Assembly: GCF_016097555.1 (NCBI RefSeq)
Contig: NC_054703.1
Span: 22,922,551-22,986,550 of the forward strand
Reading direction: 5' to 3'
From: Gigantopelta aegis
Taxonomy: Eukaryota > Mollusca > Gastropoda > Neomphalida > Peltospiridae
DNA: 64,000 nucleotides
Numbering within the stretch: position 1 is the first letter of the stretch; the number at the start of each line of letters is the position of its first letter. The position numbers were made by a program, and so were the translations under genes. Positions 785-19,831 of this stretch are shown piece by piece. The notes under the pieces are model-generated. The model worked only from the letters and a program-made list of their open reading frames with translations. It was not told the DNA's origin and made no database searches.

Positions 785-898
785 ATGGCCGATGGATTTG
801 AAATTCGCACACCTGGTAACTTGAAGACACCCACACCCAGCATACAGGATTTCCTCCCAACACTAATGTTCAGGACATTAAGTCATTACTTCATACAG
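785..898 (+). CDS. Candidate first coding exon
   Basis: The ATG at 785 sits in a fair start context (cagcATGG) and opens 38 codons ([12 protein letters not shown]...) ending at CAG|GTACAG in phase 0, which matches the phase-0 start of the next exon. An in-frame ATG at 773 is an alternative start. Support is only phase and splice consensus; no domain is visible. Confidence 0.4.

Positions 899-19831: not shown

Follow-up and report, generated by a model that had tools for sequence, protein, structure and literature searches.

A candidate two-module RlaP-family nucleotidyltransferase gene in the mollusc Gigantopelta aegis

A 64,000-nucleotide stretch of the Gigantopelta aegis genome (hereafter the window, meaning the whole stretch) contains a locus at about 2087-19831 on the forward strand that can be read as one animal gene with 14 exons and 625 amino acids, apparently single-copy. 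Its C-terminal half (module 2) would be an RlaP-family, polymerase-beta-type nucleotidyltransferase, and its N-terminal half (module 1) an inactive, strongly diverged and partial copy of the same domain. Taken jointly with the mechanism proposed below, this account is tentative, a little short of an even chance. The domains are recognised by homology, and from them we infer that module 2 most likely works on RNA ends as a nucleotidyltransferase and that module 1 is its inactive partner. As far as sequence can tell, what is new here is an intron-rich animal gene in which an intact RlaP domain is preceded by a worn copy without an active site; the domain family itself is known from bacteria and phages. 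The source genome has 1.15 Gb and the gene lies on a 40.8-Mb contig; contamination is unlikely because of the introns and the long contig.

Module 2 and its active site

Module 2 (268 amino acids from joined exons within 12839-19831, with one joined codon) matches PF10127 (RlaP) at E=4.1e-13 over residues 23-191. The score is 50 bits against a curated cut-off of 23, so that module 2 passes, and its best family match is phrog_388 (E=1.1e-26). When Pfam was run on seven candidate exon open reading frames (ORFs), only the motif exon of module 2 was significant. A profile was also built from 25 phage and bacterial relatives, the window itself contributing no sequence, and was run on the 4575 stop-to-stop ORFs, each 15 codons or longer, from both strands of the window plus 40 kb upstream (104 kb). 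The motif exon is its top match (E=6.3e-9).

The exons of module 2, all on the forward strand, and the sites within them are as follows.

12839-13014, +, exon with the active-site motif; PF10127 gives 23.4 bits from its ORF alone, and it is the best of the 4575 ORFs
12940-12987, +, G-S loop and two metal-binding acids; the seven motif columns invariant in 10/10 relatives are all kept
15328-15462, +, exon with the third acid (GAG 15394-15396) and the F...LKG...ELLF helix; 10/10 relatives have D or E in the acid column, where module 2 has E and module 1 a gap
15874-15918, +, exon with GT-AG junctions and phase 0 at both ends
17578-17718, +, exon with the D-x-K helix (17698-17706) and a basic region; D and K are invariant in 10/10 relatives and kept
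18287-18400, +, exon with agreeing phases; aligns with ARDFLLSVRNGELS of phage L011
19637-19831, +, last exon, with LPExxDY...WL and the stop TGA 19829-19831; phase 0; third of the 4575 ORFs in the profile search, at E=0.34 only

Enzymes of the polymerase-beta superfamily use a G-S loop, two metal-binding aspartates and a third acid. Module 2 retains the motifs G-S-x3-G and S-D-x-D, and in an alignment with 10 relatives it keeps G, S, G, P, S, D, D, the third acid E82, D160 and K162. Across six frames of 2000-64000, the pattern GS...SD-x-D occurs once, at 12940 (+), which bears out the first-pass annotation of the window in its claim of an intact GS...DSDVDY-type motif in module 2. Judged by its sequence, module 2 is an RlaP-family nucleotidyltransferase with a predicted intact active site.

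Other searches added little. Searches of PDB sequences gave nothing significant, NCBIfam gave no match, and neither did viral scans with module 2 alone or with the linker added; Rfam at gathering scores had no match in the window. A DUF3859 match on the linker (E=0.03) was under its cut-off and was not used.

The gene appears single-copy. An exon-by-exon search, which weak copies could escape, gave six genome matches to module 2, all within this gene, and hence no paralogue. In another genome search, query residues 43-95 (exons 2087 and 3548) gave no match, their own place included, so that this search says nothing on their copy number. PF10127 run on the whole genome likewise gave no match and missed the window gene itself, being insensitive to split exons.

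Module 1 and the gene model

In the same profile search, the module 1 ORF at 8214-8462 (exon 8262-8415) ranks second of the 4575, at E=6.7e-5 over profile positions 71-113; with module 1 of the final gene model as the one target, the match extends over positions 71-150. Against phrog_388, module 1 gives E=4e-4, or 1.4e-3 on the piece taken from the gene model. Some of the work used an earlier, hand-joined module 1 that predates the final model and still holds 8065-8137, namely the first shuffle test, the 10-relative alignment, BLAST, the tree, and the codon and simulation work; in the first four of these it also has the frame-1 reading after 11031. BLAST of the hand-joined piece against a 30-row database gave L012 at E=1.7e-6 (37% over 59 amino acids) and module 2 at E=0.002. 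The direct comparison of the two modules was mixed overall: the hand-joined piece scored 67 against a best of 56 among 2000 shuffles, and the gene-model piece scored 60, which 2 of 5000 shuffles reached or exceeded. The case for module 1 rests on the profile. We take module 1 to be a real but remote relative of the RlaP domain.

Two RlaP-type regions in tandem had been proposed at first pass, with a PF10127 search of the joined exons set beforehand as a test. Both regions are family-related, and the test recovered module 2. On the other hand, the hand-joined module 1 had no PF10127 match at E up to 5, placing it under the curated family cut-off, although the wider same-family profile matches it; module 1 also has no recognisable active site and is narrower than proposed. 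Of the element order said to be common to both regions, ELxxFxxxLKG...ELLF...W is present in module 1 (8262-8415, ending EPW), but the GS-like loop is not. Module 1 is recognisable only past the active site, since the profile finds nothing before the ELxxF helix, and the SNVYF stretch at 8065-8137 has a codon score of -3.1 and breaks the frame unless a micro-exon is assumed. No GS...SD-x-D was found in six frames of 2000-12700, a scan from which an intron within the motif would have hidden it. Unless the motif is interrupted in that way, module 1 is most likely non-catalytic, whichever exon model is chosen.

The exons preceding module 2 in the final model, again on the forward strand, are given below; exons were linked by splice site and phase.

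2087-2118, +, candidate first coding exon with ATG 2087, donor TTTGTG|gtgagt and a phase-2 exit that fits 3548; uncertain (codon score -2.0)
3548-3663, +, exon 2, no known domain; GT-AG, phases agree, codon score +21.5, weak donor (-0.1)
5117-5320, +, exon 3, no known domain; phases agree, codon score +34.2, only itself among the genome matches listed
7644-7825, +, exon 4, directly before module 1; phases agree, codon score +21.7 against +4.7 in the next-best frame, no profile match, weak donor (0.3)
8262-8415, +, module 1 core, with its ...DSEPWQQL end; the profile and phrog_388 matches given above
9306-9429, +, module 1 helical part, with the basic KKKKNGG stretch and FYQ; hand-joined BLAST match to L012, and the joined-model profile match reaches position 150
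11062-11149, +, module 1 end; frame kept, acceptor score -1.5
11697-11868, +, linker exon between the modules; phases agree, acceptor score 8.4

Exon 4 could mark where the lost catalytic half once lay, or it could have nothing to do with the domain. The 14 exons can be joined at GT-AG junctions into an uninterrupted 625-codon frame through both modules, as a candidate gene model. From 11697 to TGA 19829-19831 all junctions are GT-AG and the phases agree; upstream of ATG 2087, an in-frame stop lies at 2003.

Several other exons and explanations were tried and set aside. The gene start at 785 offered by the first-pass annotation was rejected, as that exon is part of a high-copy repeat of about 2.07 kb. 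The repeat unit comprises window 1-1785 and about 295 bases upstream (L004 9706-10000); window 700-1300 recurs near-identically (given as 100%) at 39 other places on many contigs (best 40 of 1433 candidates), and the unit also stands in head-to-tail arrays, for example on contig C2931. Its identity suggests recent spread or homogenisation. A 2H phosphoesterase (LigT half) read by eye from HVTLYH at 11164-11361 has no PDB match at E up to 10, no Pfam match and a codon score of -16.6. Its residues from about 10 to 46 recur at most of 149 other genome places (best 150 of 1552 candidates); the segment is a dispersed repeat and probably intron. It mimics an exon, with an open 100-codon frame and a good donor. 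An earlier version of module 1 with three frame breaks was withdrawn in part: the third break went with this repeat, and once 8065-8137 is dropped and acceptor 11062 is used, the model has a single open frame. A generally indel-rich assembly is unsupported, as 5 of the 6 near-full-length intronless HSP70 copies read keep an open frame for about 1800 nt, and the sixth is split in frame.

A rival explanation, possible though doubtful, is that only module 2 works, transcription starts between the modules, and module 1 is a decaying or untranslated remnant. Several points speak for it and weigh on our two-module gene. Acceptor 11031 (score 6.5) is stronger than 11062 (-1.5), and reading on from it meets an in-frame TGA at 11080. 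Direct inclusion of 8065-8137 breaks the frame and fits only with an assumed 20-nt micro-exon, so the final model drops it. The 625-codon model requires the weak acceptor 11062 together with donors 3663 (-0.1) and 7825 (0.3). Codon scores are negative for exon 2087 (-2.0 over 10 codons) and exon 8262 (-4.3 in the model frame versus +14.5 in another open frame, homology being taken as deciding). Module 1 lacks the catalytic motif, and its tree branch, measured on the hand-joined piece, is 4.93 versus 2.39 for module 2.

Against the remnant explanation, the exons can be joined at GT-AG sites into a single open frame, the phases of module 2 continue back into the linker exon 11697, and the 5′ exons 3548, 5117 and 7644 have positive codon scores. 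Because the codon model learned from one HSP70 gene plus the exons of module 2, the scores of module 2 itself are circular. In a neutral-decay simulation of 308 codons (module 1 and the 5′ part), 12.9%, 2.6% and 0.3% of runs stayed stop-free at 0.05, 0.1 and 0.2 substitutions per site, respectively; indels were ignored, 24 of the 308 codons came from 8066-8137, which is absent from the final model, and the codons had been picked for being open, which favours the two-module gene. Because only 2.6% of runs are stop-free at 0.1 substitutions per site while the branch is about 4.9, the frame of module 1 was probably held open for much of its divergence, with a recent loss possible. Module 1 had been called "regulatory or dying" at first pass; its lack of a recognisable active site agrees with that description, but "inactive" fits better than "dying", as a single 625-codon frame can span both modules.

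Further repeats lie 3′ of the gene, all of them read by eye. Just beyond it, 20381-20937 holds three near-identical tandem copies of a unit of about 182 bp. At 29750-31151 (-), two overlapping open frames are built from a unit of about 24 residues repeated in tandem (SNRGREKGKSMVATSTPELKRKST), and after them an ORF at 31272-31877 resembles a DDE transposase.

Proposed mechanism and the acceptor

RlaP was reportedly first described by Burroughs and Aravind in 2016. Later papers predict that it restores nucleotides lost from cleaved RNA ahead of ligation (PMC7824862) and place it across several counter-RNase repair systems (PMC6514570). By analogy, we infer the same chemistry for module 2. Nucleotide transfer is a proposal, as are an RNA substrate, a ligase partner and any part played by module 1. 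The two aspartates and the glutamate of module 2 would, with Mg2+, transfer a nucleotide from a nucleoside triphosphate. The most likely acceptor would be an RNA that has been damaged at its 3′ end, for instance a cleaved tRNA, which an RNA ligase would then reseal, and module 1 would most likely serve beside module 2 as a partner or RNA-holding domain.

RtcB reseals RNA in animals, and RLIG1 is described as doing the same. RtcB is present on contig C3 of the same genome. A second RtcB-like match, on the small contig C664 (51003-52273, a 390-codon open frame), is perhaps a bacterial contaminant. Among the ORFs of the nearest 20 kb upstream and of window 1-42000, no ligase gene was recognised by eye, and no profile search aimed at ligases was made; because this is an animal genome, the neighbourhood carries little meaning.

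Module 2 could instead act on another acceptor, namely a small molecule, a protein (AMPylation) or a signal oligonucleotide, as aminoglycoside nucleotidyltransferases and HalB do on theirs; we consider this unlikely. Three observations speak for it and against RNA ends. The best solved matches of a relative's predicted model are aminoglycoside nucleotidyltransferases and HalB, and the Hailong defence is described as signalling with oligodeoxyadenylate (PMC12265719). Moreover, the D-x-K-x3-H-x2-R helix, a feature of our alignments rather than a published definition, is invariant in 25 of 25 alignment rows but incomplete in module 2, where D and K are kept while H is replaced by Q166 and R by H169; module 2 lacks a tyrosine, a histidine and an arginine common to all 10 relatives and to the 25-row alignment. 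However, a common fold reveals no substrate, sequence groups module 2 with RlaP and phrog_388, and the five bacterial loci seen have an RNA-repair setting.

The "pseudo-dimeric enzyme" of the first-pass annotation is a guess. Paired modules are conceivable because KNT and LinB have active sites common to both subunits of a dimer (PMC4631478), but a KNT-like arrangement, with one active site made from the catalytic half of module 2 and the helical half of module 1, is very unlikely: module 1 does retain the later helical part without a catalytic motif, yet it has E and T at D160 and K162 of module 2 (in pairwise alignments; unaligned in the 10-relative alignment), module 2 keeps both residues in its own helix, which argues against a simple swap, and the similar enzyme AadA is a monomer in that same source.

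With RNA ends as the preferred acceptor, a wider proposal can be made, which we regard as improbable in its full form: some animals may keep an RlaP-type nucleotidyltransferase as a covalent active-inactive pair that restores nucleotides where stress or antiviral nucleases have cut tRNA or other RNA. If so, an RNA-repair arm known from phage-bacterium conflict would operate in animal cells. A conserved animal RlaP gene would make the nucleotide-replacement step testable, and its pairing with an inactive copy would bring a pseudo-enzyme into a family seen elsewhere as single genes (27 ORFs). No report of an animal RlaP gene, or of an RlaP-kind enzyme replacing lost nucleotides before sealing, was found among the open-licence papers listed, which is weak evidence of absence.

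Relatives and comparison with known systems

At E up to 0.1, module 2 matches 1196 of 50,697 phage records, 34 of which cover at least 80% of its length. Among 114 pattern stretches from bacterial genomes, five loci (L013-L017) were confirmed, all from Bacteroidota. Directly upstream in 5/5 lies a second RlaP-family gene, adjacent and clearly different (about 4330-7050 of each locus). tblastn on the fetched DNA found a match to a WYL regulator in 5/5, RtcB in 4/5 and a PNKP-type phosphatase in 2/5 of these loci, with Pfam assignment made for the genes of L013 and L015. A PNKP-phosphatase match was also found in 3 of 20 viral loci, two of which have identical RlaP proteins.

In the tree, classes A and B are separated with 100/100 support (four class-A rows), and modules 1 and 2 are both placed in class B; the branches are long and the module 1 row is sparse (48% of columns), both flagged by the tree program, and the order of modules 1 and 2 is not settled by it. 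Because both fall in class B, an origin of the animal tandem by fusion of bacterial class-A and class-B genes is improbable and found no support.

Compared with RlaP (PF10127), which Pfam names the RNA repair pathway DNA polymerase beta family, module 2 scores above the cut-off and has G-S...S-D-x-D, whereas the animal gene has introns and a tandem inactive copy, and its module 2 is without the Y, H and R invariant in 10/10 relatives. phrog_388 is the best family match of both modules, and the best BLAST matches of module 2 are mycobacteriophage proteins; by contrast, each of the 27 ORFs read from phages, viruses and bacteria is a single gene of 241-391 amino acids, with no within-ORF tandem noticed. 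The Bacteroidota pairs also have two RlaP-family genes in tandem (5/5), with RtcB near in 4/5, but each pair joins one class-A gene to one class-B gene, while both animal modules are class B. Kanamycin nucleotidyltransferase, ANT(4′), AadA and HalB resemble the fold of a relative's predicted model; they share about 10-18% identity in fold alignments and use other substrates, and we claim no membership among them for the animal gene.
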